Shown: one piece after another, positions 5,476-43,635 of the stretch
Numbering within the stretch: the first letter of the stretch is position 1
How the letters are laid out: every line of letters begins with the position of its first letter
From: Nitrospira sp.
GTDB lineage: Bacteria; Nitrospirota; Nitrospiria; Nitrospirales; Nitrospiraceae
NCBI GenBank assembly: GCA_022226935.1
Contig: CP092081.1
Span: 1,247,760 to 1,311,759, forward strand
Direction: 5' to 3'
Length of the DNA: 64,000 nucleotides
Position numbers and translations under genes: made by a program
Notes under the pieces: generated by a model
Seen by the model: only the letters and a program-made list of their open reading frames with translations
Databases searched by the model: none
Told to the model about the DNA's origin: nothing

Positions 5476-5484
5476 CGGGGACCG

Positions 5485-6815: not shown

Positions 6816-7010
6816 GGATGCATCTCCTCTTCAAGAAAACTGCGAATCGTGGGTGAGAACTCGTGTAGCGTCGGTAGTATAGCAATGCCTGCCAAACCGA
6901 GCAATCTTCTCGCAGGTTTTTGCGATTCGTGCCGGATGATGCCCCACAGGATGAATTGCAGATTGTGGCGTACTTCAGTAAAATTCGGCCTCTTCGCAGG
7001 AGGGATACGC

Positions 7011-7421
7011 ATGGTGGTTGCAGGTGGGCCTATCCAACGACCGTTGGCCATGATGATGCGTCCCATCACGAGGACCGTGCGACCCGATGATTCATTGTTG
7101 ATTGTGGCGCAGCAATTGCGTGATGCCCGGGTCGGGGCCATGCTCGTTGCTGATCGTGGCGACTATGTGGGTATTGTCAGCGAGGCCGATCTCGTCCGCA
7201 AAGCCATGGCAAGCGGGGCTGCGTCCGAGCACGTGACGGTCCGCTCGGTGATGAGCGCCCCGATCATGACGATCGATATCGCCCAATCCGCGCATGAGGC
7301 GAGTGATGTGATGGCCGAACGGGGAATCCGGCATCTGGTGATTACCGAAGAAGGGCGTGTGGTGGGAATGATTTCTGTGCGCGATCTCCTTCGATACTTC
7401 AAAAACTGGGGGACTGTGTAG
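7011..7421 (+). CDS. CBS-domain protein (136 aa)
   Basis: A small stand-alone protein of two CBS motifs, which in this family bind adenine nucleotides and sense energy state. The first spans about residues 15-70 (VRPDDSLLIVAQQLRDARVG, then YVGIVSEADLVRKAM), the second 80-133 (HEASDVMAERGIRHLVI, then VVGMISVRDLLRYF). The start at 7011 is chosen because GCAGGAGGG lies 6-14 nt upstream; the longer open frame from 6621 would run antisense through ugd. No partner domain is attached, so the regulated target is unknown. Confidence 0.85.
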   Translation: MVVAGGPIQRPLAMMMRPITRTVRPDDSLLIVAQQLRDARVGAMLVADRGDYVGIVSEADLVRKAMASGAASEHVTVRSVMSAPIMTIDIAQSAHEASDVMAERGIRHLVITEEGRVVGMISVRDLLRYFKNWGTV

Positions 7422-7427
7422 CATGGT

Positions 7428-9059
7428 GTGGTCGCGCCCCCGCTGTCGTCGTGCCTCCTCACTGTGTCCTGCGGTCTTTTGTCGATGATGGCACAAAGAC
7501 CTGCCGCTGTTTCCATTCCTCGTCTCTTTTTGCTCCTCACCGCGCTCGTGACCGGCGCGATCGTCATGGCGCTCGAAATTTTGGGCAGCCGGCTGCTGGC
7601 CCCTGTATTTGGAAATTCTCTCTTTGTATGGGGCGCATTGATCGGGATCATTCTCGCGGCCATGAGCTCCGGGTATGCGTTCGGTGGCTGGGCCTCCGAT
7701 CGGTATCGCGTGGCGGCGGTGCTGGCCTGGCTTCTCCTTGGATCCGGCGCATGGACGTTGCTGATGTCCTGGATGGGGCAGGGTGCTATTTTCCAAGTCG
7801 CCAAACTGGTCGAGGATCCACGATGGGGCCCCAGCCTTGCGGCTTGTGTGTTGCTGGCTCCCCCGGCATTTGGGCTGAGCGGAGTGATGCCCGCATTGCT
7901 CCGATTAGCCGTCGTCGACATGGGATATCTGGGTCGCCATACAGGCAGCATGATCGCCTTATCCACGGTCGGTAGCTTGGCGGGAACGTGGGGGACGGCG
8001 TTCTTCCTGCTTTCGTGGTTGGGAACCCAGACCCTCGTAGCCACGCTGGGGGTGATTCAACTGCTGCTGGGGTTGCTCTGGTTACAACAAGGAAGCGGGA
8101 AGGTCGCAAAGGTGACCGGGTTGTTTGTAACAGGTGGGCTCATAGTGGGATGGCAATTGTTCGGTCAGGCCCCTCCCGTTGCAGGATTGGTGTATCAGGA
8201 AGATAGCCCCTATCAGCAAGTCCGTGTGCGTGACGATGATCTGTTTCGTTATCTCGTGCTCGACCGCACCTGGCATGCGGTCATGTGGCGGTCGGATCCG
8301 ACCGCCCTGTTTTTGCCCTATAGCCAACTGATGGTGGCGGCGGTCGCATTGGCTCCGGAACCCAAACGAGGACTCATTTTAGGGCACGGCGGCGGTTCAC
8401 TGGCCAAGTGGCTTGCTCAAGTCTGGCCTGAGCTAGAACTGGATGTGGTTGAATTCGATCCCGTCGTGGTGCGGATGGCGGAACAGTATTTTGACTATCG
8501 GCCTCCTGCCAATCATCATGTCTCGGTCAAAGATGCCCGCGTGTTTCTCCGCGACACGAAGGCCACCTATGACGTCATCTGGGTTGACGCATTTGCCCGG
8601 CATCTTATTCCCTTCCATTTGACCACGGTCGAATTTTTTTCAGAGCTGCGTGGCCGACTGAATTCCAATGGCGTGCTGGCTCTCAATCTGGCTTCTTCTG
8701 GAGAAGGAGGGGATCTGCTGCGTGCGAGTGCGGTCGTGCAGACGCTGAAGACATCGTTTCCCTCAATTGAATCGTTTGGTGTGAAGGGGCCGTGGCGTGC
8801 GCACCAGACCACCGCAGAAAATCTCATTTTCTTCGGTGGCGGCCCGATTGACACGATGTCGTACGATGAGATCGTGAGGCGTATTCACCTGCAGGTCGAG
8901 GCTCGTCGATTACCCCCCGAGGCGATAGCGTTGTTGGCCTCGCGACGCACTACTCCCTGGTCGCCGGGCCTGACGCTCACGGATGACTACACGCCGTATG
9001 ATCTGCTGATTGGGTCTCACGCGGTCGAAATGTCGCCAGAGGGGAACGCGGTTCCGTAA
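7428..9059 (+). CDS. Membrane-bound spermidine synthase-like protein (543 aa)
   Basis: The N-terminal part (about 25-240) holds six to seven hydrophobic helices starting LLLTALVTGAIVMALEILG, with SRLLAPVFG, typical of fused MFS/spermidine synthases. The C-terminal part (about 255-500) has a Rossmann-type aminopropyl/methyl-transferase fold: LGHGGGSLAKWLAQ for nucleotide binding, DVVEFDPVVV, and DVIWVDAFA. Family knowledge suggests transfer of an aminopropyl group from decarboxylated SAM, but many fused members have no proven substrate and no SAM decarboxylase gene lies nearby. The start is uncertain: GTG 7428 or, more likely, ATG 7485 or 7488, just before the first helix. Confidence 0.8.
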   Translation: MVAPPLSSCLLTVSCGLLSMMAQRPAAVSIPRLFLLLTALVTGAIVMALEILGSRLLAPVFGNSLFVWGALIGIILAAMSSGYAFGGWASDRYRVAAVLAWLLLGSGAWTLLMSWMGQGAIFQVAKLVEDPRWGPSLAACVLLAPPAFGLSGVMPALLRLAVVDMGYLGRHTGSMIALSTVGSLAGTWGTAFFLLSWLGTQTLVATLGVIQLLLGLLWLQQGSGKVAKVTGLFVTGGLIVGWQLFGQAPPVAGLVYQEDSPYQQVRVRDDDLFRYLVLDRTWHAVMWRSDPTALFLPYSQLMVAAVALAPEPKRGLILGHGGGSLAKWLAQVWPELELDVVEFDPVVVRMAEQYFDYRPPANHHVSVKDARVFLRDTKATYDVIWVDAFARHLIPFHLTTVEFFSELRGRLNSNGVLALNLASSGEGGDLLRASAVVQTLKTSFPSIESFGVKGPWRAHQTTAENLIFFGGGPIDTMSYDEIVRRIHLQVEARRLPPEAIALLASRRTTPWSPGLTLTDDYTPYDLLIGSHAVEMSPEGNAVP

Positions 9060-27471: not shown

Positions 27472-27835
27472 CGACGGGTTCTCCCTCAGAAGGGATGTCC
27501 GACGAGGTTCCGACGCGGCGGGCGGCTTTGTCGAGCGCCTGGCGCAGCCGTTCCAGATCGACTTCGGCTTCCTGCAAGGCCTTGGTTTTTCGCCGCAGCT
27601 CGATTCGCCCGCGGACCCAAGCTGGAAACAGCAGAATGCCGGATACCAGCAGGCCGACGCCGAAGGCGGCCAGAATCGGCTTATAGATCAGAATCGATGC
27701 CGATCGAAGGCCGAAGAAATACCGGAGGGTGACCTCCTGTTCTTGATTCTGAAGGAAGAACGACAGAGCGAGCAGCAGTACCGTCCCGACCAATATCAAG
27801 CGGATCAACGCGAGGCCCTCCTTGGCCGGGGTCAT
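27464..27835 (-). CDS. LapA/DUF1049-domain membrane protein (123 aa)
   Basis: Two hydrophobic helices (LIRLILVGTVLLLALSFFL and ILAAFGVGLLVSGILLFP), joined by a short loop with LRYFFG, followed by a coiled-coil-like cytoplasmic tail (RRKTKALQEAEVDLERLRQA). This layout is that of the LapA domain, which in E. coli works with LapB in tuning lipopolysaccharide synthesis. No lapB is adjacent, so the exact role is open. It overlaps tsaE by 4 nt and mutS by 8 nt. Confidence 0.82.
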   Translation of the reverse strand: MTPAKEGLALIRLILVGTVLLLALSFFLQNQEQEVTLRYFFGLRSASILIYKPILAAFGVGLLVSGILLFPAWVRGRIELRRKTKALQEAEVDLERLRQALDKAARRVGTSSDIPSEGEPVDG

Positions 27836-28425
27836 TGTACACGGGTTTGTGAAACCACTCTAGTGGGACGACGCAGCGAGATATGAGAGCGAAGCGCGAG
27901 GAGCAGGCGAGACGCCGCCGACCCTTTGGCTGTGAACACCGCCTGTCGCGCGGACGGGGGGCGATGTGTGAGGCGAACCTCGAGACGGTCAATCGGCAGC
28001 CCTGCGCCCCAGCGTTCGGCCCACTCGATAGCGATGATGGCACGGCCATCTACGTAGTCACCAAGGCCGGTATTGTCGAGTTGGGCGGCAGTGAGCCGGT
28101 ATAAATCAGTGTGGATCAGCGGAAGGCGCCCCCGGTATTCGTGGATCAAGGTGAAGGTCGGACTACTCACAGCCGTTGGTTCGGCGCCGAGTCCATCGGC
28201 AATCCCTCGAACCAGTGACGTTTTTCCGGTTCCCATTTCTCCGAACAGAGCCACGACTTCGCCTCCCTTGAGGAGGAGGCCCAGACATCGCCCCAGCCGG
28301 TGAGTCTGTTGCCGGGAGCGAAGTATGATGCTCCAGGATTTGGTGGCACCGGGAGGCCTCGCCTTCTTCTGCCGGGCAGGTGAAGCGGTCGACAGTTTAG
28401 AGATGCGTGGTTGGTGCGATGGCAT
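27832..28425 (-). CDS. tsaE: tRNA t6A biosynthesis ATPase TsaE
   Basis: The ATPase partner of TsaB/TsaD in making threonylcarbamoyl-adenosine at tRNA position 37. Walker A is GEMGTGKTS (residues 62-70), followed by SSPTFTLIHEY and HTDLYRL, then IAIEWAERWG, all family features. The N-terminus has about 28 extra basic residues (ARQKKARPPGATKS) before the domain, and the gene overlaps nnr by 29 nt; a later start may be real. At 197 aa it is longer than the usual 150-160. Confidence 0.92.
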   Translation of the reverse strand: MPSHQPRISKLSTASPARQKKARPPGATKSWSIILRSRQQTHRLGRCLGLLLKGGEVVALFGEMGTGKTSLVRGIADGLGAEPTAVSSPTFTLIHEYRGRLPLIHTDLYRLTAAQLDNTGLGDYVDGRAIIAIEWAERWGAGLPIDRLEVRLTHRPPSARQAVFTAKGSAASRLLLALRSHISLRRPTRVVSQTRVQ

Positions 28426-29953
28426 GGGGGATATGGCGAATCAGATCGCGGGCAATCATGCCGGCCTGGCCGAGCTGCTGCGCGGCGAGATCTCCGGCAA
28501 GACCATGAAAGTAGGCGGCGGCACAGGCAGCGTCCCAGGGGGCCACACCTTGAGCGAGCAACCCGCCGACCATGCCGGTCAAGACATCTCCGGTTCCCGC
28601 GGTGGCCATTCCAGGATTGCCAGTCGGACAGATCGCTGCCACTCCGTCCGGTCTGGCAATGACCGTCCGGGCTCCTTTAAGCACCACGAACACGCCGCGT
28701 TCACGCGCGAAGCGCGTCGCTGTGCCGAGGCGATCTTCATTCACGGACTGGGTAGTGGCCTCTGCTTCGAGTCTGGCCATTTCGCCGGGATGGGGCGTGA
28801 TGATCGGCGGGCGATGGCATTCCGTCAGCAAGGAAGCCTTTCCCGCCAAGGCATTGAGCGCATCAGCATCGAGCACGCAAGGCTTGTCGATGCGTTTCAC
28901 GAATTCTTGTACCAAATCGACGGTCTCCGGATGCGTCGTCAGCCCAGGACCGATCGCCACGGCATCGCGGGATCCCGCGAAGGTGAGGAGGCGATCTAGG
29001 CCCGAGCGGGCAAAGGTGCGGGCCTTGGTTTCCGGCATCGGCAGGGTCATGGCTTCGAGTAATTTAGCCTCCAGGACGTCATTGACGCTCGAAGGAACGG
29101 CGGCCGTGACGAGACCGGTTCCGACTCGAAGTGCCGCCAGAGCCGCCATGGCCGCGGCGCCCGTCTTGCCGACCGATCCTGCGATGATGCCGAGATGCCC
29201 ATAGGTGCCTTTATGCGAGGACGGACGTCGCGGAGGAAGCGCTGCCTGTGCGGAGTCGCTGGTCAGAAGCAGCAGACGGCTCCCGACGGCGTCGACAAAC
29301 GAAGATGGAATGCCAATATCGGCCAGACGCACCAGCCCGGCGCAATCGATGCCGGCTCCGCAATAGAGGCCTGCTTTTGGCAATCCAAAGGTGACGGTGA
29401 GGTCCGCGCGTACCGCAGTGCCCAGGATAGATCCGGTATCGGCATGGAGGCCTGATGGAAGGTCTACGGCGACGGTGAAGCGTCCGGCGACATTGATGGC
29501 GTCTATCGCATCGCGGTACAAGCCGATCACCGGCGTGGAGAGTCCGGTGCCTAAAATGGCGTCGATAATGATGTCGCTTGGCGCCAGCCGTTGTTGAAGG
29601 GCGTTCGTATCAGTGGGACGAGTAATGGACGATGGGCCTGCCGTCCGGTGAAATCGCTGATACATCGCCTTCGCATCACGGCTGAGATCGGCAACTGGCG
29701 CTAATAACAACACGTGGACCCGGGCTTTTTTTCGGCGTAACAGTCGAGCGACGACGAAACCATCCCCGCCGTTGTTGCCCTTGCCACACAGGATGACGAC
29801 CTTTTTTCCTGCGACCGATCCGTACCGCGCCTCAAGATGAGTCACCACACCAGTTCCGGCTCGTTCCATCAGCACGAGGGACGGTACCTGCGCCTCGGTA
29901 ATCGTCCGATGGTCAAGTGCGCGCATTTGCTCGGCGGTCACGATCGGTATCAT
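28397..29953 (-). CDS. nnr: Bifunctional NAD(P)H-hydrate epimerase/dehydratase
   Basis: Repairs hydrated NADH and NADPH. The N-terminal epimerase (YjeF_N, 1-215) has CGKGNNGGDGFVVARLL and DLPSGLHADTG. The C-terminal ADP-dependent dehydratase (about 230-500) is ribokinase-like, with ITPHPGEMARLE and the catalytic ATAGTGDVLTGMVGGLLAQ. The length of 518 aa equals the usual fusion. The gap to pdxJ is 59 nt. The order with tsaE (nnr-tsaE) is common in bacteria. Confidence 0.95.
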   Translation of the reverse strand: MIPIVTAEQMRALDHRTITEAQVPSLVLMERAGTGVVTHLEARYGSVAGKKVVILCGKGNNGGDGFVVARLLRRKKARVHVLLLAPVADLSRDAKAMYQRFHRTAGPSSITRPTDTNALQQRLAPSDIIIDAILGTGLSTPVIGLYRDAIDAINVAGRFTVAVDLPSGLHADTGSILGTAVRADLTVTFGLPKAGLYCGAGIDCAGLVRLADIGIPSSFVDAVGSRLLLLTSDSAQAALPPRRPSSHKGTYGHLGIIAGSVGKTGAAAMAALAALRVGTGLVTAAVPSSVNDVLEAKLLEAMTLPMPETKARTFARSGLDRLLTFAGSRDAVAIGPGLTTHPETVDLVQEFVKRIDKPCVLDADALNALAGKASLLTECHRPPIITPHPGEMARLEAEATTQSVNEDRLGTATRFARERGVFVVLKGARTVIARPDGVAAICPTGNPGMATAGTGDVLTGMVGGLLAQGVAPWDAACAAAYFHGLAGDLAAQQLGQAGMIARDLIRHIPHAIAPTTHL

Positions 29954-30012
29954 GACGTCAATCGGGCCTCCGACCGGGGACTGAAGTTGGGCCTTGCGCG
30001 GGCAGAGCCAGG

Positions 30013-30726
30013 CTAGGCCACCAATTCTTTCATTTCACGAACCGCTTGAACGAGCCCCACCATGAGGGATCGAGCGATAATGCTGTGGCCGATATTGAAT
30101 TCGACGATCTCCGGCAGTTTGGCCAACCGTTTGACGTTTTTATAGGTCAGACCATGGCCGGCGTTCACTCCGAGACCGAGTTTGTATGCCAGTTTTGCCG
30201 CCTGCGTGATGGCTTCAAATTCTTCGTCTTCTTCCTTGGAGCGTTTGGCGTTGGCATAACGGCCGGTGTGTAACTCGACATAGGCCGCGCCGATTTTGTG
30301 AGCGGCTTTGATTTGATCCAAGCTGGGTTCGATGAACAGACTGGTCGGAATGCCGCCATCCCGCAGCAAATCGACGATCTTTTGGATGCGCTCGCGGTGG
30401 TTGGCGACATCCAAGCCGCCTTCCGTAGTCAACTCTTGGCGACGTTCCGGAACCAACGTGACCAGGTCGGGCTTCACGCTCAAGGCGATTTTGGCCATGG
30501 CGTCATCGGCGGCCATCTCCAAATCCAATTTGGTTCGAACGATTTCCCGCAGCATGGTCAGGTCGCGGTCTTGAATATGCCGGCGGTCCTCCCGAAGATG
30601 CACGACGAGACCGTCTGCGCCGGCCAGTTCGACGAGGATGGCGGCGGTTAGAGGATCGGGGTCGGTCCCGCCACGCGCCTGCCGGAGTGTTGCCACATGA
30701 TCGATGTTGACGCCCAGTCGAGCCAT
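30013..30726 (-). CDS. pdxJ: Pyridoxine 5'-phosphate synthase
   Basis: Condenses 1-deoxyxylulose 5-phosphate with 3-amino-2-oxopropyl phosphate to give pyridoxine 5'-phosphate (DXP-dependent vitamin B6 route). It has the N-terminal [26 protein letters not shown], the [18 protein letters not shown] active-site segment, and GHGLTY near the end. The length of 237 aa is typical. GCGGAGG precedes the ATG. It is the first gene of the minus-strand operon and diverges from the aspartate-family operon. Confidence 0.96.
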
Positions 30727-31027
30727 TACGCCTCCGCAACTCCCATGAATGACGATGGAGAAAGATTTCGGAACTGGTCGAAATTCATAGACAATTCTGT
30801 TGTTCCTGAGGCATTATTAACAGAAGACGGTGGGGCGGGGCAAGAAGGCTCCGTTCAATGGGCCGTCACGCTTTTCTCGCGTTCATGGCAGAGCGGCAAG
30901 CCGCAACTCTATAGAAATATAGTGAAATTGACTCGTTTTGAGGGCTCTATTAAAATACGCCCCTTTCAGAGGCGTGACGACGCAACCCGTTCAGCAGAGG
31001 CCCCGCCAGTAGGAGTCTGACACATCC
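30727..31027. other. Divergent promoter region between pdxJ and the alaC-like gene
   Basis: A 301-nt region read outward on both sides. It holds a clear plus-strand promoter at 30928-30956. I saw no reliable minus-strand promoter for pdxJ, although one must lie here. An in-frame plus-strand ORF through it has no ribosome site and no domain, so no gene is called. Confidence 0.6.
30928..30956 (+). promoter_or_regulatory. Promoter of the aspartate-family operon
   Basis: TTGACT (30928-30933), a 17-nt spacer and TAAAAT (30951-30956), each one base from consensus. The leader to the first ATG is about 65 nt. Confidence 0.7.
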
Positions 31028-32224
31028 ATGTCGATCAGCGACGGTTTTTACCGCATCAAGCGACTTCCTCCTTACGTATTTGCCCAGGTGCAATCCCTGA
31101 AACTCGAGGCACGTCAGCGGGGTGAGGATATCATCGACTTCGGCATGGGCAATCCCGATCAGCCCACGCCGCCTCATATTGTCGACAAACTGATCGAGGC
31201 GTCCAAGAAAGCCAAGAATCACCGCTATTCGGCCTCGCGTGGCATTACCAAACTGCGCCATGCGATTACCGGTTGGTACAAGCGGAACTACGATGTGGAT
31301 TTGGATCCCGAGACCGAAGCGATTGTCACGATCGGCTCGAAAGAAGGTCTCGCGCACTTGGCGTTGGCTACGATCGGGCCGGGCGACGTGGTGCTGACGC
31401 CGACTCCGACCTATCCCATCCACATGTACAGTTTCATTATTGCGGGCGGCGAGGTACGCGGGATTGAGCTGCGTCAGGACAGCGATTTCTTCGACGATCT
31501 GCTACGGGTCTATCGCCAAACGTTGCCGCGGCCGCGTATTCTGGTGATCAATTTTCCACACAACCCCACGACCGCGGTGGTCGACCTCGAGTTCTTCAAG
31601 AAAATCGTCGCGTTTGCCAAAGAGCACGACGTCATTGTGATTCACGATCTGGCCTACGCGGATATCGCGTTCGATGGGTATAAGGCGCCGAGTTTTCTGC
31701 AGGTGCCAGAGGCAAAGGACGTGGGCGTCGAGTTTTACACGCTGTCCAAAGCCTATAACATGCCTGGATGGCGGGTCGGCTTTTGTGTCGGCAACCGTGA
31801 AGTGGTGGGAGCCCTCGCGAAGCTGAAGAGCTATCTCGATTACGGTATTTTTCAGCCGATTCAAATCGCCAGCACCGTCGCGTTGAACGGACCGCAGGAC
31901 TGTGTGAAAGAGGTTGTACAGCGGTATCAAAACCGCCGGAATGTCCTGGTGAACGGGCTGAATCGTATCGGGTGGCCCGTGGCCTTGCCTAGGGCGACGA
32001 TGTTTGTCTGGGCTCGTATTCCGGATCCGTTTCGGCACATGGGGTCGCTGGAGTTTTCGAAATTGCTGCTCCGTGAAGCGAAGGTTGCAGTATCGCCGGG
32101 CATCGGCTTCGGTGAAGGCGGCGATGAATTCGTGCGGTTTGCCCTCGTGGAGAACGAGCACCGCACGCGGCAGGCGCTCCGCGGGATTCGGAAAGTGTTG
32201 AATTTGGATGATCAGGAATCATGA
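31028..32224 (+). CDS. alaC: Alanine-type class I aminotransferase
   Basis: A PLP-dependent aminotransferase close to AlaC, which makes alanine from pyruvate and glutamate. It has [46 protein letters not shown] and the PLP-lysine segment [17 protein letters not shown]-diaminopimelate aminotransferase is the nearest alternative, and the operon with aspartate-pathway genes could favour a lysine role. The next gene's ATG overlaps its stop (ATGA). Confidence 0.87.
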
Positions 32225-33534
32225 AGACTGAGATCGGAGTCGGATTAATCGGCTTCGGCACCGTCGGGACCGGCGTGGCTCGAGTGCTGATCGAAAACGC
32301 GGAATTGATCCGTCGGCGGGTAGGCGTGCCTATCAAATTGGTGCGCATTGCGGATTTGGACATTACCCGTGACCGGGGCGTGGCGATTCCGCCAGGCGTG
32401 CTGACTACGGACATTCAGCAGGTGCTGGAAGACCCGCGCGTCGATATTGTGATTGAGTTGATGGGCGGGTATGACCTTGCGAAACGCGTGATTCTGGATG
32501 CGGTGCAACGAGGCAAGCACGTCGTGACGGCGAATAAGGCTCTCTTAGCCGTGCATGGAGAAGAAATTTTCGCTGCCGCTTCGCGTCGCGGGATCGACCT
32601 GGGATTCGAGGCGAGCGTGGGTGGCGGCATCCCGGTGATCCGCGCCTTGATGGAAGGTTTGGCCGCGAACAATATTCAATCCATCTATGGCATCATCAAT
32701 GGTACGTCGAATTATATTCTGAGCCGGATGACCAGCGAAGGACAGCGGTTCGAGGTCGTGTTGGAGGAAGCCAAACGAGCCGGCTATGCCGAGGCTGACC
32801 CGACATTCGATGTCGCAGGTATCGATTCGGCCCATAAACTCACCATCATGGTCAGTCTGGCCTACGGCACTCCGGTCAACTTCAAGGAAATTTATACCGA
32901 AGGCATTACCGGCCTGACGCCGCTGGATATCGCCTATGCCAAGGAGTTTGGCTTTACCATCAAGTTGCTGGCGATTGCCAAGTTTTCCGATGGAGACATT
33001 GAAGCGCGCGTCCATCCCACCATGGTGCCATCGGCCTCACAAATTGCAAAAGTAGATGGGGTGTACAATGCCATTCAGTTGGTGGGTGATGCCGTCGAAG
33101 ATGTGGTGCTGTATGGGCGTGGCGCCGGATCGATGCCAACGGGAAGCGCTGTCGTGAGCGATGTGATGTCCATCGCGCGCGATCTGCTCAAGGATGCGAC
33201 GGGGCGCGTTCCACCCGCCTCATATCAGCCGGATTACCGGCGGCCGCTGCGTATCCGGCCGATGGAAGAAATCACCTCGTTATATTACATTCGCTTCATG
33301 GTTCTGGATCGGCCCGGGGTCTTGTCTCAGATCGCGGGGGTGTTGGGGCGCTACAGCATCAGCATTTCCTCGGTGCTTCAGCAAGGACGCAAAGAAGGGC
33401 AGACCGTGCCGGTCGTCATCATGACGCATATGGCGAAAGAGCGTGATATCCAAAACGCGCTTCGCGAGATCAATCCGATGCCCTACATCTCCGAACCGAC
33501 GACATTGATCAGAGTCGAGGGGAAAGACGAATGA
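32221..33534 (+). CDS. hom: Homoserine dehydrogenase
   Basis: Reduces aspartate semialdehyde to homoserine. An NAD(P)-binding motif GFGTVGTGV opens the protein; NKALLAVHG and the substrate domain ([20 protein letters not shown], then [10 protein letters not shown]) follow; a C-terminal ACT domain (residues about 355-430, [19 protein letters not shown]) suggests feedback inhibition by threonine. The length of 437 aa is normal. It overlaps the preceding gene by 4 nt. Confidence 0.96.
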
Positions 33535-33580
33535 CGGGGGCGTTTCCGACCTCAATGAGAAGGTGGTTGACTAGATCGTT

Positions 33581-34639
33581 ATGACTCGCTGGCGCGGCAT
33601 TATCGAAGAATACCGGAAGTTCCTGCCGGTGACGGCTCAGACGTCGGTCATCACGCTGGGAGAGGGCAACACGCCCCTCATCCGCGCGACGCGGCTGGCA
33701 AAAAAAATCGCCCCGGGTGTAGATCTCTACCTCAAGTATGAAGGGATGAACCCCACGGGATCCTTCAAAGATCGCGGCATGACCATGGCCATTTCCAAGG
33801 CGGTCGAAGGAGGAGCGAAAGCGGTCATTTGCGCCTCCACCGGCAATACGTCCGCATCGGCAGCGGCGTATGGCGCCCGGGCTGGCATCGCGGTGTATGT
33901 GCTGATCCCCGCTGGAAAAATTGCGCTCGGCAAGTTGTCGCAGGCCATGATGCACCAAGCCATCGTCATTCAGGTTGAAGGAAACTTTGACCAGGCGTTG
34001 ACCATCGTCAAGGAGTTATCGGCAACCTATCCGGTGGAATTGGTGAACTCGCTCAATCCGTACCGGATCGAAGGTCAAAAAACGGCCGCGATGGAGATCT
34101 GCGACGATCTTGGGGATGCGCCGACCGTCCATGTACTTCCTGTAGGGAATGCGGGTAATATCACCGCCTATTGGAATGGGTATCGCGAGTATCGTGCCGC
34201 CAATCAAACGACGCGCTTGCCTCGCATGATGGGGTTTCAAGCCGCCGGAGCCGCGCCGATCGTTTTGGGGCATGTCGTGAAAGAGCCGCAGACCGTCGCA
34301 ACGGCGATACGGATCGGCAACCCGGCGAGCTGGCAGTCGGCCCTTACGGCGGTGAAAGAATCGTCCGGCGCCATCGATATGGTCACGGATGAAGAAATTC
34401 TCCATGCCTACGCCTTGGTCGCGCGGGAAGAAGGGGTCTTTTGTGAGCCAGCATCGGCCACTTCTGTGGCCGGTGTGATTAAGTTGAGCCAAGCCGGACA
34501 ATTAAAGGAAGGTGCCACGGTCGTCTGTACATTGACTGGGCACGGTTTGAAGGATGCCGATACGGCGATCGGCATTTCACGTCAGCCTCAAACGGTGAAA
34601 GCTACTCGCGATGATGTGGCCCGCCTCCTTCATGTCTGA
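33581..34639 (+). CDS. thrC: Threonine synthase
   Basis: Converts O-phosphohomoserine to threonine with PLP. The PLP lysine is K63 in [15 protein letters not shown], and [18 protein letters not shown] binds the phosphate. The length of 352 aa matches the short class common in Gram-positives and archaea-like branches. It lies 46 nt after hom. Its substrate requires a homoserine kinase, and no thrB is present here; see the next gene. Confidence 0.95.
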
Positions 34640-34657
34640 TTACCTCAGGAACATTGC

Positions 34658-35908
34658 ATGAAATATTTGATCCTGCATGCCGACGGGATGGCAGACCTTG
34701 CCTGTGCGGAGCTCGGTGGGAGCACGCCTCTTCAAGCGGCCAAGACTCCTTATCTTGACCAAATCGCCCAGCGTGGAGAAGTGGGACTCTTGAGCCTTCC
34801 TTCCGATGCGGGCAGGACGGGCAGCGATGTCACCGCGGTTGCCGTGTTGGGATATGATCCCAAGAAATATTATCCGGGCCCCGGTCCTCTGGAGGCCGCG
34901 GGTCTCGGGGTGACGGTGGGTGAACAGGATGTGGTGTTCCGTTGCACGATGGTCACGGTGCGCGGCGAGTCCGCTTCAGGCGGGAAAGATCGCGCAGCCG
35001 ACATCAAGAAGCTCGGACCGCATGTGATCATGGAAGATGCGACGGCCGGGCTCATCGAGACGGAAGAGGCTCGGGAATTGGTTGAAGCCGTCAACGAACA
35101 GCTGGGGTCGGAGAGCATTCAGTTTTATCCTGGTTCCGGTCATCGGCACTTGATGGTGTGGGTGGGAGGAAAATCGCGCGCGGCTTGTGTCGATCCTCAG
35201 CAGCTCGTTGGCCACTCGATTGCCGAGGCTCTGCCGGCCGGTGATGGCGCTGATGTGCTGCGGAAAATCATGGACGCCTCCTTCTTTATTCTGCGCGATC
35301 ATCCGGTCAACGAGGAGCGTGAACAAGAAGGACTGAAGCCGGCGAACTGTCTGTGGTTGTGGGGGCAGGGGCGCGCTCCCTTGTGGCCACCGTTGCCGGA
35401 ACGTTATCAGATCACCGGTGTCGTGATATCAGCCAGTGATGTACACCGTGGAGTCGGCCTCTGTGCCGGAATGGACGCGGCCGAGCTGCCGGCCGATAGC
35501 GGCGATGAATCGGAAACGTTCGCCGGCTGTGTGAACGCGGTCGTCCACGAGTTGGCGAAGAAAGATTTCGTCTATCTCCATGCCGGGTTGTCGGACGATG
35601 TGTTGCATGCGACCGATATCCACGACAAGGTGCAGGCGATCGAACGTTTCGATGCCCAGGTGGTCGGGCCGATGCTTGCGGCGTTGGCCAAGTATCCGGC
35701 GTACCGGCTGCTCGTGGTGTGCGATCCCGGGTTGGCGAAGGGGCATGGCTCAGAGGTTCCGCCGATATTGTATGCGTTGTGCGACGGTGCCGCCCAACCA
35801 TCGGCCGGCTCGGCCACCCGCTTTCATGAACAGGACAAGGCCATTGCCGGATCTGCGCCTCGCGATGCCACAAAACTCATGATGCGATTATTTCCTCGAG
35901 GAGCCTAA
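34658..35908 (+). CDS. Phosphoglycerate-mutase-like protein, probable homoserine kinase
   Basis: A member of the cofactor-independent phosphoglycerate mutase (ApgM) branch of the alkaline-phosphatase superfamily. It has ILHADGMAD with a metal-binding Asp, [16 protein letters not shown], the catalytic Ser region [17 protein letters not shown] (S56), and a later [19 protein letters not shown] metal site. The length of 416 aa is standard. The gene sits between thrC and lysC; related proteins in thr operons are catalogued as proposed homoserine kinases (TIGR02535, from memory). Glycolytic phosphoglycerate mutase is the alternative. The kinase role rests on context. Confidence 0.85.
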
Positions 35909-35913
35909 GGGTT

Positions 35914-37149
35914 GTGGCACTGATCGTTCAGAAATACGGCGGCACGTCGGTTGGGAACATCGAGCGGATTCATCGCGTCGCCGAACGGGTCGAGCGTGCG
36001 CAAAAAGACGGGCATCAGGTCGTTGTCGTGTTATCGGCCATGAGCGGCGAAACGGATCGATTGCTCAAGCTGGCGCATGACGCAACCCACTCCCCGGATG
36101 AGCGTGAACTGGACATGCTGCTTTCGACTGGAGAACGCGTGACCATCGCCTTGTTGGCCATGGAGCTGCGGGGGCGAGGAGTGAACGCCCGATCGTTCAC
36201 GGGCCGGCAGGTCGGCATTCACACCGACAGCGCTCATACCAAGGCGAGAATTTCCCGTGTCACGGCCGAACGGATCAAAGAAGCGCTCACCGCAGGGGTC
36301 ATTCCGGTGGTCGCGGGATTTCAGGGCATTAACGCCAGCTCGGATGTCACGACCTTGGGGCGGGGAGGGTCCGATTTGACCGCTGTAGCATTGGCTGCGG
36401 CACTCAAGGCCGATCGCTGTATCATTTATACGGATGTTGACGGGGTGTACACCGCCGATCCCAACATTGTGCCGGCCGCGCGTCGCCTCGACAAGATTTC
36501 GTACGAAGAGATGCTGGAAATGGCGAGCCTCGGCGCCAAGGTGTTGCAGAGCCGCTCCGTCGAATTTGCGGCGAAATATTCCGTTCCGGTGGAAGTCAAT
36601 TCAAGCTTCAAGGAAGGAAAGGGAACGCTCGTGACACGTGAAGATGCCGATATGGAAGGGGTCATGGTGTCCGGTGTGACGGGAGACCGCAATCAAGCCA
36701 AGATTACGATCGTCGGTGTGCCGGATCGCCCGGGTATTGCCGCGCGTGTATTTGGAGCCGTGGCGAACGCGAACATCGTTGTGGATATGATCATTCAAAA
36801 CGTCAGCCAGGCGTCCATGACCGACATCTCCTTCACGGTGCCCAAGCCGGATCTGCGCAATGCCGTCGATCTCGTTCAGCGATTGTCCCAGGAAATCGGT
36901 GCCCGGTCGGTGGCTGTCACCGAATCTATTGCCAAGGTGTCTCTGATCGGCGTGGGCATGCGATCTCACTCCGGCGTGGCGGCGAAAATGTTCGAGGTGC
37001 TGTCACGCGAAGGCGTCAACATCATGATGATCAGCACATCGGAAATCAAAATATCCTGTGTGATCGAGGAGAAGTATCTGGAATTGGCCATGCGCACGCT
37101 CCATACGGCGTTTGGTCTGGATCGCGTGTCGGCGCCGGCCTTGAGCTAA
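35914..37149 (+). CDS. lysC: Aspartate kinase
   Basis: Phosphorylates aspartate, the first step to lysine, threonine, methionine and isoleucine. The N-terminal kinase domain has KYGGTSVGN and [17 protein letters not shown]; two C-terminal ACT domains (about 270-405) include [15 protein letters not shown] and [19 protein letters not shown], indicating feedback control. The length of 411 aa is that of the monofunctional alpha-type enzyme. The start is GTG 35914, 5 nt after the previous stop, with GAGGAG upstream. Confidence 0.96.
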
Positions 37150-37208
37150 TCGCCGGGAAGGGAGCGTCGCTGGACGAGCGGCTTCCTCTACGCGTCACGA
37201 AACGCCGT

Positions 37209-38867
37209 GTGGCTCTCACATCTATGAAACGCCGAACGACAGTATCACGCCGGTCTTCAGCTGTGGCCTCCACCAGCGTGACGACGCTCACCGCCGCGCA
37301 AGCCTCCGCACTGGAGATCTACGATACGACGTTGCGTGATGGGGCTCAGGCCGAGGACGTCAGTTTCTCTGTCGAGGATAAGCTTCGCGTCGCGCAACAG
37401 CTCGATGAACTCGGCGTGCACTTCATCGAGGGCGGGTGGCCGGGGGCGAATCCCAAAGACATTGAGTTCTTCCGGCAGATCAAAACCATTCCGTTTCGGA
37501 ATGCCACTGTCGTGGCATTCGGCTCCACGCGGAAAGCCAGCAATCCGGTCCGGAAAGACAAAAATCTCCAGGCGCTTCTGGATTCCGGCACGCCGACCAT
37601 CACGCTCTTTGGGAAGAGTTGGTCGTTCCAGGTGACGGATGCCCTCGGTATTGCGCTCGCCAAGAATTTGGAACTCATCGAAGATTCCATTCACTATCTG
37701 CGTTCCAAAGATCGGCGCGTGTTCTATGACGCGGAACATTTTTTCGACGGGTACAAAGCCAATCCCGAGTACGCGCTGCAGACCATTCGTCGTGCGATCG
37801 CCGGCGGTGCCGAGCGAGTGATTTTGTGCGACACGAATGGCGGCACGATGCCATGGGAAATTCGGGAAATCTGCCGAGTGGTGAAGCAGGAATGCCCAGT
37901 GCCCTTGGGCATCCACGCCCACAATGACAGCGAAATGGCCGTGGCCAATTCACTCGTTGCCGTGGAGTCTGGAATTCTGCAGGTGCAGGGCACGATCAAC
38001 GGAATCGGCGAGCGGTGCGGCAATGCCAATCTCTGCTCCATCATCCCGAACTTGCAATTGAAAATGCAGCGCCCGGCACTCGGAAACAAACTGACCAGAC
38101 TGAAAGATGTCTCGGGGTTTGTCACGGAGATTGCCAATTTGATGCCCAATAAGCGGCAGCCCTATGTGGGGGATGCGGCGTTTGCGCACAAGGGTGGTGT
38201 GCATATTCATGCGGTCCTCAAGAATGCGGCGACCTATGAGCACATCGATCCCGCCGTTGTCGGAAACCGGCGCCGCATATTGGTCTCCGATTACGCGGGA
38301 CGCAGCGGATTGATGGAAAAGGTTGAAGCCTACGGGATTTCGTTGACCAAAAATCATGCGAAGCTCCAGGAACTCGTCGAGACGCTCAAAGAGCGCGAAA
38401 GTCAGGGATATCAATTCGAAGGCGCCGAAGGGTCCTTTGAATTGTTGATGCGTAAAGCGATGGGAAGCCATCGTCCGTCGTTTCAGTTACTGGGATTCCG
38501 GGTGATCGTCGAAAAGAAGCAGGAACATGGGCTTCTGCTGTCGGAAGCGACGGTCATGGTGAAGGTCGGCGAGGTGGTCGAACATACGGCGGCGGTGGGG
38601 GCCGGACCTGTGAATGCGCTCGACCATGCATTACGTAAAGCCTTGGAGAAATTTTATCCGCAACTGCGTGAAGTCAAACTGCTGGACTATAAGGTCCGCG
38701 TGTTGTCTGCAGATAAGGGGACGGAATCCAAGGTTCGCGTGCTGATTGAATCGGGAGATCATAAGGACAAGTGGGGGACGGTGGGTGTCTCTGAAAATAT
38801 TATGGAAGCCAGTTGGCAGGCGTTGGCAGACAGTATCGAGTACAAATTGCTCCTAGCCGGTCGCTGA
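37209..38867 (+). CDS. cimA: (R)-citramalate synthase
   Basis: Joins pyruvate and acetyl-CoA to citramalate, giving a threonine-independent route to 2-oxobutanoate and isoleucine. The HMGL-like barrel begins IYDTTLRDGAQAEDVSFS, with HAHNDSEMAVANSLVAVE and GIGERCGNANLCSI; the C-terminal regulatory domain (about 430-545) follows. The length of 552 aa is as usual. The start is uncertain: GTG 37209 or ATG 37224. It follows lysC by 59 nt. Two routes to isoleucine precursors are thus placed side by side. Confidence 0.9.
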   Translation: MALTSMKRRTTVSRRSSAVASTSVTTLTAAQASALEIYDTTLRDGAQAEDVSFSVEDKLRVAQQLDELGVHFIEGGWPGANPKDIEFFRQIKTIPFRNATVVAFGSTRKASNPVRKDKNLQALLDSGTPTITLFGKSWSFQVTDALGIALAKNLELIEDSIHYLRSKDRRVFYDAEHFFDGYKANPEYALQTIRRAIAGGAERVILCDTNGGTMPWEIREICRVVKQECPVPLGIHAHNDSEMAVANSLVAVESGILQVQGTINGIGERCGNANLCSIIPNLQLKMQRPALGNKLTRLKDVSGFVTEIANLMPNKRQPYVGDAAFAHKGGVHIHAVLKNAATYEHIDPAVVGNRRRILVSDYAGRSGLMEKVEAYGISLTKNHAKLQELVETLKERESQGYQFEGAEGSFELLMRKAMGSHRPSFQLLGFRVIVEKKQEHGLLLSEATVMVKVGEVVEHTAAVGAGPVNALDHALRKALEKFYPQLREVKLLDYKVRVLSADKGTESKVRVLIESGDHKDKWGTVGVSENIMEASWQALADSIEYKLLLAGR

Positions 38868-38901
38868 AGCCGTTTTCCCTCCATTTCGGCGCATATAATC
38901 C

Positions 38902-38930
38902 TTGACAGGCCAGATAACCTCACGTAACTT
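38902..38930 (+). promoter_or_regulatory. Promoter of the IHF-type gene
   Basis: A consensus TTGACA (38902-38907), a 17-nt spacer and TAACTT (38925-38930) as a moderate -10. It gives a leader of about 75 nt before ATG 39014. Confidence 0.6.
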
Positions 38931-39013
38931 ATGGGGAAATTCTTTGTCTTGGACGCTCGACACCAAGAAGCACTTCCTAAGGAACGACTCTAGTGGATGG
39001 CGGGGGGAAAGGC

Positions 39014-39289
39014 ATGAGAAAGGCGGATATCGCGAACGAAATCTTCAAGCAGGTTGGAGTGTCTAAAAACGATGCAGCGGATATCGTCGAACTCGTGCTC
39101 AATCTGCTGAAAGGCGTGCTGCAGAAGGGTGATGCGGTCAAAATTGCAGGATTTGGGAATTTTGTCGTTCGAAGCAAAGGGGCCCGTAAAGGACGTAATC
39201 CGCGAACCGGTGAAGAAATCGGCATTACCCCCCGTCGCGTGGTGACGTTTCGACCGAGTCAGGTCTTTAAAAAGTACGTGAATTCCTAG
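39014..39289 (+). CDS. ihfA: Integration host factor/HU-family DNA-bending protein (91 aa)
   Basis: A small DNA-bending nucleoid protein. It has MRKADIANEIFKQVGVSKND, GFGNFVVRSKGARKGRNPRTG (given as GFGNFVVRSK and GRNPRTG) and VTFRPSQVFK. The GRNPRTGEEI arm with ITPRRVVTFRPS is typical of the IHF alpha branch. ATG 39014 with GGGGGAAAGG upstream is preferred to GTG 38993. An IHF beta partner is not in the window. An HU call would also be acceptable. Confidence 0.87.
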   Translation: MRKADIANEIFKQVGVSKNDAADIVELVLNLLKGVLQKGDAVKIAGFGNFVVRSKGARKGRNPRTGEEIGITPRRVVTFRPSQVFKKYVNS

Positions 39290-39330
39290 TCGATACCTTG
39301 TCACGAGCACACGCAGCATGAGGACCGGTC

Positions 39331-39684
39331 ATGGGGAATGATCCCAGACTGGGAAGTAAGGTTTTTTATAAAATCGGCGAAGTCAGCAAGATTTCTAAAT
39401 TGCCGGCTTATGTCTTGCGGTTTTGGGAGTCGGAATTCAGCTTCCTGAGGCCCAAGAAAAGTCGCGGCAATCAACGGTTGTATGTACAACGTGATGTGGA
39501 TACGGTGCTGGAGATCAAGCGCATGCTCTATGATGAAGGGCACACGCTGGCGGGAGTGAAGCGGTACTGGGCCCGCCGAGGACGGGCCACCGTCAAAAAG
39601 AGCGGGTCGCGGAAGGAACTGGCACAACGTGTCAGGGGCGATCTCCAGGCGATCATCCGAATGATCGATTCACATTCAGCGTGA
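39331..39684 (+). CDS. MerR-family regulator (117 aa)
   Basis: A winged-helix MerR DNA-binding domain occupies residues 12-80: [39 protein letters not shown] and [13 protein letters not shown]. The C-terminal tail is short and basic, then helical, with no cysteine or ligand domain, so it likely responds to a partner or acts constitutively. MerR genes directly after ihfA are common in many bacteria. It begins 41 nt after ihfA and is probably cotranscribed. Confidence 0.9.
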
Positions 39685-39746
39685 ATGGTTCCGGTGATGC
39701 GGGCGGCTGCGTCCAACCGTGTGGGTCACATCGATGTCGGTCGTGT

Positions 39747-39823
39747 CGGGGCGTAGCGCAGCCCGGTAGCGCACTCGCTTGGGGTGCGAGGGGTCGTGGG
39801 TTCAAATCCCGCCGCCCCGACCA
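39747..39823 (+). tRNA. tRNA-Pro (anticodon GGG)
   Basis: A full 77-nt cloverleaf including an encoded CCA. The acceptor stem CGGGGCG pairs with CGCCCCG, the anticodon stem CTCGC/GCGAG encloses the loop TTGGGGT with anticodon GGG at 39781-39783, and the T-arm has GTTCAAATC. No integrase or attachment repeat lies nearby. Confidence 0.96.
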
Positions 39824-39966
39824 TCGGCACGATGTCGTCCATCACGCACTGTCCTAACCAATCTTCGCCTATCCGTGAACCTTCTCGTCTTCTTCCCACC
39901 ATCATCCTTGAGCCAACGGTTTCAGTCCTCCCCGTTCACGGTAGTTGCCATGCAGAAGGAGTGCCT

Positions 39967-40782
39967 GTGGCGCGCGTACGGATTCTTGTAACCAACGATG
40001 ATGGGATTGCGTCTCCCGGAATTCATGCCGTGGCGGCTGCGCTCGGCGCGCTGGGAGACGTGTGGATTGTCGCACCCGACCGTGAACGAACCGCAGTGGG
40101 ACATGCGGTGACCTTGCACAAGCCGCTCCGCATCACCAAAATGGCGCCCCGCGTGTTTATGGTGAACGGAACCCCGGTGGATTGTGTCAATCTCGCCTTG
40201 GTGAAAATCTTGCCCGGGCCTCCGGCGATGATTCTCTCGGGCATCAATCGCGGCGTCAATCTCGGCGATGATGTCATGTATTCCGGGACGGTGTCAGGCG
40301 CCCTGGAGGGAACGATCCTCGGCATTCCGTCGGTGGCCGTGTCGCAGGAAGGCGGGGAGACGTTCCGATTCGAGGTCGGCGCGCGGTATGCGGCTCGAGT
40401 GGTTGCGCAAGTGTTGCAGCACGGCTTGCCGGCAGAAACCATCCTGAACGTGAATATCCCCGATGTTCCGTTACGTTCCATCAAAGGCGTCAAGGTGACG
40501 TGTTTGAGTCGGCGCCGCTTCAACAATCCCATTGTCGAGAAAGTGGATCCCCGAGGGCGCAAATATTACTGGATTGCGGGAACCCGTCAATCGTGGAGCC
40601 GCAAGCAAGACGCCGACCATGAAGCCTTGGAGCGCCGTATGGTATCCGTGACGCCGATCCATCTCGATACGACCTATCACGCGATGCTGGAACACTTTAA
40701 GGCCTGGGAGCAGCCGCTCTCCAAACTGTCTGCGACCCGGAGTGTGGTCAAAGGGCGTTCTCCTAAGAGGTCTCGCGCATGA
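39967..40782 (+). CDS. surE: 5'-nucleotidase/polyphosphatase SurE
   Basis: A metal-dependent nucleoside 5'-monophosphatase used in stationary survival and nucleotide control. The metal site is in ILVTNDDGIASPGI, followed by APDRERTAVGHAVTLHKPLR, SGINRGVNLGDDVMYSGTVSGA split as SGINRGVNLGDD and YSGTVSGA. GTG 39967 (MARVRILVTNDDG) is chosen because AAGGAG lies 6-12 nt upstream; the longer frame would run back into the tRNA. Its end overlaps the DedA gene by 4 nt. Confidence 0.92.
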   Translation: MARVRILVTNDDGIASPGIHAVAAALGALGDVWIVAPDRERTAVGHAVTLHKPLRITKMAPRVFMVNGTPVDCVNLALVKILPGPPAMILSGINRGVNLGDDVMYSGTVSGALEGTILGIPSVAVSQEGGETFRFEVGARYAARVVAQVLQHGLPAETILNVNIPDVPLRSIKGVKVTCLSRRRFNNPIVEKVDPRGRKYYWIAGTRQSWSRKQDADHEALERRMVSVTPIHLDTTYHAMLEHFKAWEQPLSKLSATRSVVKGRSPKRSRA

Positions 40783-41414
40783 GCGCCCTGATCGAATGGC
40801 TGATCGAAGTTCTCGGCCGATTCGTCATTGCGACCATTTCGATGTTGGGCTACACCGGCATCGTGATCACAATGGCGATCGAAAGTGCCTGCATTCCTCT
40901 GCCAAGCGAAATCATTATGCCATTCTCCGGATACTTGGTCTTCACCGGCCAGTTTTCGATGGTGGGTGTGACTCTGGCCGGCGCGATCGGGAATGTGCTG
41001 GGTTCCTTAGTGGCTTACTATGTTGGCGTGTGGGGAGGGCGGCCGTTTGTCGAACGGTACGGCCGGTATTTTCTCGTGTCCCAGCATGATGTGGAACTGG
41101 CCGACCGATGGTTTGCGAAACATGGGGAGGCGGCGGTGTTGATCGGCCGACTGTTGCCGGTCGTACGAACGTTCATTTCTCTCCCGGCGGGAATTGCGCG
41201 CATGGACGTCAAAAAGTTCGTGCTCTATTCATTTGTCGGAGCGCTTCCCTTCTGCTACGCGTTGGCCTATGTGGGCTTGAAGATGGGAGAGCACTGGAAT
41301 GAATTACACCAGTATTTCCATCACGCGGATCTGGTGATCGGTGTATTGCTGGCGGTGGGTCTCGGCTATTTCCTCTGGTCTCATTGGCCTAGGCGCCGCC
41401 CCTCTATGGAGTAA
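40779..41414 (+). CDS. DedA-family membrane protein (211 aa)
   Basis: An inner-membrane protein of the DedA/SNARE-associated family. Family features: ESACIPLPSEIIMPFSGYLV, GNVLGSLVAYYVGVWGG, and GRLLPVVRTFISLPAGIARM, with several membrane helices and a C-terminal helix (LVIGVLLAVGLGYFLW). Members act in undecaprenyl-phosphate or lipid translocation and membrane homeostasis; the substrate here cannot be decided. It starts within the end of surE (ATGA) and ends 9 nt before cysS. Confidence 0.9.
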   Translation: MSALIEWLIEVLGRFVIATISMLGYTGIVITMAIESACIPLPSEIIMPFSGYLVFTGQFSMVGVTLAGAIGNVLGSLVAYYVGVWGGRPFVERYGRYFLVSQHDVELADRWFAKHGEAAVLIGRLLPVVRTFISLPAGIARMDVKKFVLYSFVGALPFCYALAYVGLKMGEHWNELHQYFHHADLVIGVLLAVGLGYFLWSHWPRRRPSME

Positions 41415-41423
41415 TGCCGCATC

Positions 41424-42884
41424 ATGTTGCGTATCTATAATACGTTGACCGGAAGCAAGGAATCGTTCGAATCGATGGTGCCCGGAAAAGTCCGCATGTA
41501 TGTATGCGGGGTGACGGTCTACGACTATTGTCATATCGGACATGCCCGCAGCGCGTTGGTCTTCGATGTGCTGCGGCGCTATTTGGAATACTCCGGCTTT
41601 GCCGTCGAATTTGCCAAGAACTTCACCGATGTGGATGACAAAATCATCAAGCGGGCAAATGAGCAAGGAGTGAGTTGTGACCACATCACGGCGACCTACA
41701 TCAAGGCCTACTACGACGATATGGACAGGCTTGGAGTTCGACGGGCCACGCTTGAGCCCAGAGCGACCGAGCACATCGCCGACATTGTCGCCCTGGTCGA
41801 GACGTTAGTGGCTAAAGGCATGGCCTATCGCGTTAATGGAGACGTCTATTTTCAGGTCGACCGGTATCCGGGGTATGGTCGCCTTTCCAAACGAAAGATC
41901 GATGATTTGCAGGCCGGCGCGCGCGTGGATGTGGACGAGCGCAAACGTCACCCCATGGATTTTGCCTTGTGGAAAGGCAGTAAACCCGGCGAACCGTCAT
42001 GGGACAGCCCGTGGGGGCCGGGCCGTCCAGGCTGGCATATCGAATGCTCGGCGATGGCGATGCGGCATCTTGGTGAGACCTTCGACATTCACGGCGGCGG
42101 GATGGATCTTATTTTCCCGCACCATGAGAACGAGATTGCCCAATCCTGCGGTGCGACCGGTAAAGAATTCGCGCGGTATTGGGTGCATAACGGCTTTGTG
42201 CAGATCAACCAAGAGAAGATGTCCAAGTCGTTGGGAAATTTCTTTACCATTCGCGAAATTTTCGACAAGTCTGAATGGCCTGATACCGTGACCGGCGAGA
42301 TGTTGCGATACTTTCTGATGTCCACCCACTATCGCAGCCCGTTGGATTTTTCCGATCAAAGCCTGGCGGAAGCCAAAAACGCACTCAACGGATTGTACGA
42401 TCTCTTCGAGCGATTGAAGGAACCGGCTCCTGCCCATGGCGCGGCCGATCAACAGATGCGCGAGGCCAACACTCGAACCAGGCAGGCATTTACTGACGCC
42501 ATGGACGATGATTTGAATACGCCGAATGCTGTAGCCGCGTTACAAAAGTTGCGCGGGGAGGCGAACAAGGCACTTGATGCTGGACTGTCCGCTGAGATGC
42601 GGCATGCCGTGAGACACGAGTTTCGTTCGTTGGGCCTGATGCTGGGTCTCCTGCAGTCCGATGACTGGCAGTTCAAAAGCCAGCCGAAGCAGAGTGTGGT
42701 GGGAACATGTGCCGACGAGAGGGCAGACTTCTCGGATGAAGAGATCGCTGCGAAGATCGCCGAGCGGCTCGCCGCAAAACAATCCAAAAACTACAAGCTT
42801 GCCGACCAGCTCAGAACCGAGCTGGCTTCCCAGGGCATTACGATTGAGGATCGGCCGGATGGCACCAGCCGCTGGAAGCGATAA
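41424..42884 (+). CDS. cysS: Cysteinyl-tRNA synthetase
   Basis: Charges tRNA-Cys. The HIGH-type motif is YDYCHIGHARS with a zinc-binding Cys upstream (CGVTVYD), further zinc ligands in HIECSAMAM and HHENEIAQS, and KMSKSLGN is the second signature. The C-terminal helical part ends with ADQLRTELASQGITIEDR. The length of 486 aa is normal. Its 3' end overlaps rlmB by 26 nt. Confidence 0.97.
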   Translation: MLRIYNTLTGSKESFESMVPGKVRMYVCGVTVYDYCHIGHARSALVFDVLRRYLEYSGFAVEFAKNFTDVDDKIIKRANEQGVSCDHITATYIKAYYDDMDRLGVRRATLEPRATEHIADIVALVETLVAKGMAYRVNGDVYFQVDRYPGYGRLSKRKIDDLQAGARVDVDERKRHPMDFALWKGSKPGEPSWDSPWGPGRPGWHIECSAMAMRHLGETFDIHGGGMDLIFPHHENEIAQSCGATGKEFARYWVHNGFVQINQEKMSKSLGNFFTIREIFDKSEWPDTVTGEMLRYFLMSTHYRSPLDFSDQSLAEAKNALNGLYDLFERLKEPAPAHGAADQQMREANTRTRQAFTDAMDDDLNTPNAVAALQKLRGEANKALDAGLSAEMRHAVRHEFRSLGLMLGLLQSDDWQFKSQPKQSVVGTCADERADFSDEEIAAKIAERLAAKQSKNYKLADQLRTELASQGITIEDRPDGTSRWKR

Positions 42885-43635
42885 TTCCGCGGAGCTGATT
42901 TACGGTCTCCATGCCGTACGAGAGGCTCTTCGAGCCGGGGGCCGCCCGATTCAGCGGTTGCTCGTGTTGGGGACAGATCGGCAGTTCGGAGAAATCGTGC
43001 GGCTGGCCAGAGAGCAGCGCATCCCTGTGTATGTCGAGCCCCGCGCCGCTTTCGACCGACTTGTTCCTGCCGGCCACCACCAAGGCGTAGTCGGACTCAT
43101 CGCTGCCAAATCCTATGGCGATCCGGACGCCATTCTTGCTTCGGCGCAGGCCCCTGGTCGGACTCCTCTGTTGGTGCTGCTCGACGGTGTCGAAGACCCT
43201 CACAATCTAGGGGCGATCCTCCGCACGGCGGAGGCGTCCGGGGTGCAAGGCGTCTTCATTCCGGAACGCCGTGCGGTTGGTCTGACAAGTGTGGTAGCTA
43301 AGGCGTCAGCCGGGGCGGTGGATTATATGCCGGTCGGCAGAGTGCCCAACCTGTCGCGATGGATCGAGCGCCTGCAGCAAGCCGGCGTCTGGGTCTATGC
43401 GCTGGATGTCGACGCGCCGAAGGGGTACACACAACTGGATTTCCGAGGGCCTGTCGCCCTGGTATTCGGCGGAGAAGGGAAGGGTGTCCGCCCAGGGGTT
43501 CGGGGTGCCTGTGATGATGCGGCGCACATTCCCATGTCGGGGAAAGTCAGCTCGCTCAATGTTTCGGCGTCAGCGGCCATCGTTCTGTATGAGGCTGTGC
43601 GTCAGCGTCGGGAGCGCGGAGAGGGGCAGTCCTGA
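42859..43635 (+). CDS. rlmB: TrmH-family 23S rRNA 2'-O-methyltransferase (RlmB-type)
   Basis: A SPOUT methyltransferase that makes 2'-O-methylguanosine in 23S rRNA (G2251 in E. coli). It has an N-terminal substrate-binding region (YGLHAVREALRAGGRPIQRL) and the SPOUT knot: LDGVEDPHNLGAILRTAEAS, VFGGEGKGVRPGVRG, and PMSGKVSSLNVSASAAIVLY. ATG 42859 lies inside the end of cysS and starts exactly at the domain. The pairing cysS-rlmB is common. The exact rRNA target is inferred. Confidence 0.92.
   Translation: MAPAAGSDNSAELIYGLHAVREALRAGGRPIQRLLVLGTDRQFGEIVRLAREQRIPVYVEPRAAFDRLVPAGHHQGVVGLIAAKSYGDPDAILASAQAPGRTPLLVLLDGVEDPHNLGAILRTAEASGVQGVFIPERRAVGLTSVVAKASAGAVDYMPVGRVPNLSRWIERLQQAGVWVYALDVDAPKGYTQLDFRGPVALVFGGEGKGVRPGVRGACDDAAHIPMSGKVSSLNVSASAAIVLYEAVRQRRERGEGQS

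Follow-up and report, generated by a model that had tools for sequence, protein, structure and literature searches.

The window analysed here is a stretch of 64,000 nucleotides from a Nitrospira genome that is a complete chromosome in a single contig (4,229,538 bp or 4.23 Mb, 99.43% complete). It carries a tightly packed operon in the order aminotransferase-hom-thrC-apgM-lysC-cimA, with all six genes on the plus strand. The first gene (31028-32224) encodes a PLP aminotransferase of the AlaC / LL-DAP aminotransferase group (NCBIfam NF006033, 659 bits, cut-off 647) and is a conserved neighbour in the relatives. It is followed by hom for homoserine dehydrogenase (32221-33534; NF004976, 546 bits, cut-off 205) and thrC for threonine synthase (33581-34639; TIGR00260, 325 bits, cut-off 167).

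The fourth gene, at 34658-35908, encodes an ApgM-family protein of 416 aa from an ATG start. It begins 18 bp past the end of thrC and stops 5 bp short of lysC, the aspartate kinase gene with a GTG start (35914-37149; NF005155, 638 bits, cut-off 346). The last gene is cimA for citramalate synthase (37209-38867; TIGR00977, 767 bits, cut-off 450). An earlier note on this DNA had reported hom, thrC and lysC with an ApgM-type gene between the latter two, and the coordinates and the NCBIfam matches confirm this, with the ORF exactly in its place.

At this locus, the closest named relatives are Nitrospira MAGs, with 94% identity to Nitrospira sp. S2bin.16 and 85% to an N. defluvii MAG. The same operon order is kept from Nitrospira to distant classes of the Nitrospirota, so the arrangement is not by chance. 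The promoter and terminator matches are at the chance level. A search for regulatory RNA in 26000-43000 of the window gave tRNA-Pro alone. Its gene, tRNA-Pro(ggg) at 39747-39823, overlaps the longest ORF of a SurE-like protein (39784-40782), the first 14 residues of which are translated tRNA, and the real SurE-like start is likely downstream.

A proposed ThrB substitute family in a genome without classical ThrB

Nitrospira grows in mineral media and therefore must make threonine. Few steps are left blank as often in predicted amino-acid pathways as homoserine kinase, a gap in 20% of 148 prototrophic genomes (PMC7311316). According to a published proposal (PMC7311316), a family of ApgM-like proteins, TIGR02535, takes the place of ThrB and transfers phosphate to homoserine from a donor, for example PEP, and the same family is named ThrB2 in gut genomes from its co-occurrence and co-localisation (PMC9026213). 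Hence, the homoserine-kinase idea for the ApgM-like proteins is an established hypothesis rather than a new one, and the genome-context proposal for this family to which the earlier note refers agrees with this literature.

Both classical ThrB types are absent from this 99.4% complete single-contig genome. The best whole-genome match to the GHMP type (TIGR00191) scores 29.7 bits against a cut-off of 168 and is IspE, while that to the APH type (TIGR00938) scores 17.6 bits against 255.9 and is an AmgK-like sugar kinase. The absence of thrB claimed in the earlier note thus holds for the whole genome with respect to these two types. A hidden GHMP-type ThrB is ruled out, as the genome has only two GHMP kinases, IspE and an HddA-like heptose kinase. 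IspE is the sole GHMP kinase in 12 of the 23 tested Nitrospirales genomes, including three (G081, G065 and G173) of genus g13. The AmgK-like APH kinase is also rejected as an alternative ThrB, scoring 18.9 bits against a cut-off of 256 and adjoining a MurU-like gene.

The genome has one copy of the ApgM family and a separate 2,3-BPG-dependent phosphoglycerate mutase, dPGM (TIGR01258, 275 bits, cut-off 82), whereas no GpmI was found in it. With its own dPGM in the genome, the ApgM-family protein need not be a glycolytic mutase.

The Nitrospira protein resembles two known groups, both incompletely. Like the TIGR02535/ThrB2 proteins such as Bacteroides BT2402, it is encoded beside hom and thrC in a genome without thrB, has the two-domain ApgM fold and shares clear descent with the orthologues above the family cut-off. 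However, its own TIGR02535 score of 337.4 bits lies below the cut-off of 446.3, while the scanned orthologues from outside the class score 558-582. Like the archaeal 2,3-BPG-independent PGM (ApgM), it matches TIGR00306 above the cut-off (355 bits, cut-off 320), and it also matches the PhpG profile NF038358.

The AlphaFold2 model is confident (pLDDT 89.5, pTM 0.90) except for the loop 362-364, where the lost histidine motif is expected. It matches the archaeal PGM structure 2zkt_B over its whole length (Z 36.9, rmsd 3.7, 359 residues, 24% identity). Unlike the archaeal ApgM (2zkt and 3kd8), the protein lacks several invariant active-site residues and the mutase motif DRRAGR, in place of which it has EDATAGL and the TIGR02535 orthologues EDYSAGH. 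The two domains are unequally preserved. The catalytic metalloenzyme domain PF01676 scores 55 bits versus 164 in an intact orthologue, but the drop is smaller in the cap domain PF10143 with 160 versus 221 bits.

The other enzymes that fill the same pathway slot are of different folds. The GHMP-type ThrB is unrelated in fold to the Nitrospira protein, and so is DvMF_0971 (NF040667), a shikimate-kinase-like homoserine kinase of Desulfovibrio with the P-loop fold. The latter is also a non-orthologous ThrB replacement and complements E. coli thrB (PMC5764234).

Distribution across the Nitrospirota

Among 295 Nitrospirota genomes, 239 match the ApgM-like protein and 40 have thrB above the cut-off, and only seven have both, two of them by weak matches. 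The two genes are thus nearly complementary (Fisher p ~5e-22, with the caveat that the genomes are not statistically independent). This distribution supports functional replacement of thrB at the phylum level. No GHMP-type ThrB occurs in this genome or the 77 other sampled Nitrospiraceae genomes, whereas each of the 15 genomes sampled from the other orders in the class has thrB.

Four of these 15 genomes have a homologue of the ApgM-like gene alongside thrB. It is intact in one (G119), degraded in another (G183) and strongly eroded in two (G131 and G270). In the latter two, the eroded homologue is still an open frame between thrC and lysC (at ~4870-5930 of loci L117 and L118), and PF10143 alone is still recognised in that of G270.

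Within the order of Nitrospira, 11 genomes of one family, f2 (genera g13 and g15), have thrC but neither an ApgM-like match nor thrB. Six of their loci were read, five from g13 and one from g15, and they keep hom-thrC-lysC-cimA in the same order with the apgM-like gene missing. These genera then must have another source of O-phosphohomoserine, make threonine without it or need external threonine. Another genome without thrB, G206, has an apgM-like copy with in-frame stops (three TGA and one TAG) between intact thrC and lysC, at 4992-6035 of its locus L119.

Active-site losses and selection

Seven residues, D9, S56, D300, H304, D343, H344 and H353, are found in the orthologues outside the class Nitrospiria, and we take them to be the metal ligands and the nucleophile by the iPGM / alkaline-phosphatase superfamily. 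The residue numbers follow an intact orthologue, L097, unless own numbering is stated. The zinc sites are confirmed (PMC9765024), for instance D12 of the structure, which corresponds to D9 of BT2402.

The Nitrospira protein does not keep all seven. In its own numbering, D9, S56, D313, H317 and D356 are kept, but the metal ligand H344 is replaced by P357 and the last histidine is in doubtful register. Accordingly the DH motif reads DP, and the C-terminal loop is shorter than in the TIGR02535 proteins. The DP motif is not an alignment artefact, as H344P is firm in two MAFFT alignments and by the distance to the next predicted strand, and the last histidine may be H363.

The losses extend beyond the ligands. 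At 52 positions, 28 intact orthologues all carry the same residue, which the archaeal mutase structures 2zkt and 3kd8 share. The Nitrospira protein has lost the shared residue at 11 of these positions (R75P, A93V, N97T, H168Q, T268S, N274T, K278C, A302V, H344P, T346L and P347A), or 13 if two positions of uncertain register are counted. In own numbering, N97, N274 and K278 have become T97, T287 and C291, and they are lost relative to TIGR02535/ThrB2 together with R75 and H344. The losses are weakly enriched at the ligands relative to the rest of the invariant set (Fisher p ~0.045).

The erosion is order-wide. Not one of the 54 aligned Nitrospirales rows retains R75 or N274, and sister genera have lost further ligands, D9 (to G or S), S56 (to G) or H304 (to Y). 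All 82 Nitrospirales sequences group in a single clade (SH-aLRT 98) of a 164-protein tree, and each of them lacks at least one of the seven ligands, whereas 65 of 65 orthologues outside the class Nitrospiria, including those of Thermodesulfobacteriota, keep all seven. The Nitrospira protein falls on the TIGR02535 side of the tree, apart from the mutase-like paralogues.

A separate substitution is seen in the second ApgM paralogues of Thermodesulfovibrionia (L098, L100, L102, L104 and similar ones), which are of the PRK04135 type and likely real mutases. All 12 examined carry E where the DxxxH metal motif has its catalytic histidine (IDSFGED).

In the genus to which the window belongs, the five kept residues D9, S56, D313, H317 and D356 are invariant in 16 of 16 species, and the sixth ligand would be H363 in 13 of the 16 under the alternative register of the loop. 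Some metal chemistry, residual or altered, is therefore possible. Other residues are newly conserved in the Nitrospirales in or near the cap domain, such as A138 R139 E140, N146 E147 Q148 and S151 E152.

The apgM-like gene is under purifying selection, yet evolves faster than its neighbours. Median dN/dS values within the genus are 0.079 for this gene, 0.027 for thrC and 0.030 for lysC. Along the protein, the constraint is strongest at residues 61-180 (dN/dS 0.046) and weakest at 241-300 (0.18) and 361-415 (0.16).

Function of the protein and the homoserine kinase of Nitrospirales

We think it somewhat probable that the Nitrospira protein is a former ThrB2, a degenerate one without the canonical phosphotransfer, and that homoserine is phosphorylated in the Nitrospirales by another enzyme. 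Its ancestor would have been a ThrB2-type (TIGR02535) member of the alkaline-phosphatase superfamily, which the Nitrospirota ancestor encoded within a hom-thrC-thrB2-lysC-cimA operon. Decay of the active site in the Nitrospirales ancestor would have removed R75, the N/K pair (N274 and K278) and the DH metal motif. The metal/phosphoserine phosphotransfer would then most likely be gone. Against this reading, five ligands stay invariant in the window's genus, the losses are weakly concentrated at the ligands, and no other kinase turned up among the GHMP and APH types in this genome or the shikimate-kinase-like type in about two thirds of one relative.

Selection may retain this protein for a role that needs the fold and the cap domain. 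The role could be, at a guess, that of a partner that binds or regulates the neighbouring threonine/lysine enzymes without catalysis of its own. A pseudoenzyme retained for binding would be expected to show such decay of PF01676 with PF10143 better preserved, and from this we infer that the protein is so retained here. In a broader and more tentative reading, the Nitrospirales, with their nitrite oxidisers and comammox bacteria, may phosphorylate homoserine by a further, undiscovered type of kinase or bypass this step, and the ex-ThrB2 may persist in the operon as a pseudoenzyme that has acquired a non-catalytic function in the synthesis of threonine and lysine.

It is rather unlikely that the protein is still a homoserine kinase, which would work via S56 and a rebuilt metal site with P357 and C291 in place of the usual H and K. 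Such a kinase would agree with the operon position, the absence of thrB from the genome and the complementary distribution of the two genes, as well as with the five residues invariant in the genus and the low dN/dS. The fitness data for its Bacteroides relative, the TIGR02535 member BT2402, point the same way, as B. thetaiotaomicron requires it for growth without threonine, but BT2402 itself failed to rescue an E. coli thrB mutant (PMC7311316).

Against the retained kinase, at least 11 superfamily-invariant positions are lost, R75 and N274 among them in every aligned row of the order, and the sister genera lack other ligands. Moreover, the TIGR02535 score is below the cut-off and genus g13 lives without both the gene and thrB. 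Hence, from the proposal of a non-orthologous homoserine kinase in the earlier note, the family, the operon position and the lack of a classical thrB stand, but the kinase role of the Nitrospira protein itself is doubtful. The classical thrB elsewhere in the genome that the note named as a refutation did not turn up, and the doubt has a different ground, which the note had not considered.

Re-purposing of the enzyme to another substrate of the aspartate pathway is improbable. The superfamily is versatile, as with PhpG for phosphonoformyl transfer, the profile of which matches this protein too, and the residues newly conserved around the cap domain would suit a new function. However, the ligands vary by genus within the order, and loss explains this better than would a new chemistry shared by all of them. 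A working phosphoglycerate mutase that sits in the operon by accident is very improbable, since the TIGR00306 match and a fold nearest to the archaeal PGM are countered by EDATAGL at the mutase motif, the lost active-site residues, the place in the tree and the separate dPGM.

Preferring a former ThrB2, we caution that the labels of 'proposed homoserine kinase' and 'phosphoglycerate mutase' should not be transferred to the Nitrospirales proteins. With the order-wide eroded copies and the genus lacking the gene, a vague gap in annotation becomes a question that can be tested. This question, namely which enzyme acts on homoserine as its kinase in the Nitrospirales, is the most valuable product of this analysis.

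The shikimate-kinase-like type is the first candidate for the missing Nitrospirales kinase. In the 1.13 Mb read of the 1.7 Mb genome of one relative, G165, no homoserine kinase was found with NF040667, and the only shikimate-kinase-like ORF scores 84 bits against a cut-off of 197. This ORF of the Nitrospiraceae relative (C4:123438, locus L359) is a shikimate kinase, with AroL as the best match at 126 bits. A second ThrC paralogue (~36% identical) was rejected as a clue. In the relative G081, this ThrC-like protein is encoded within a sulfur-carrier cluster of cysM, MoeB-like and JAMM-like genes at 3032-8000 of locus L186, and no kinase lies with it there.
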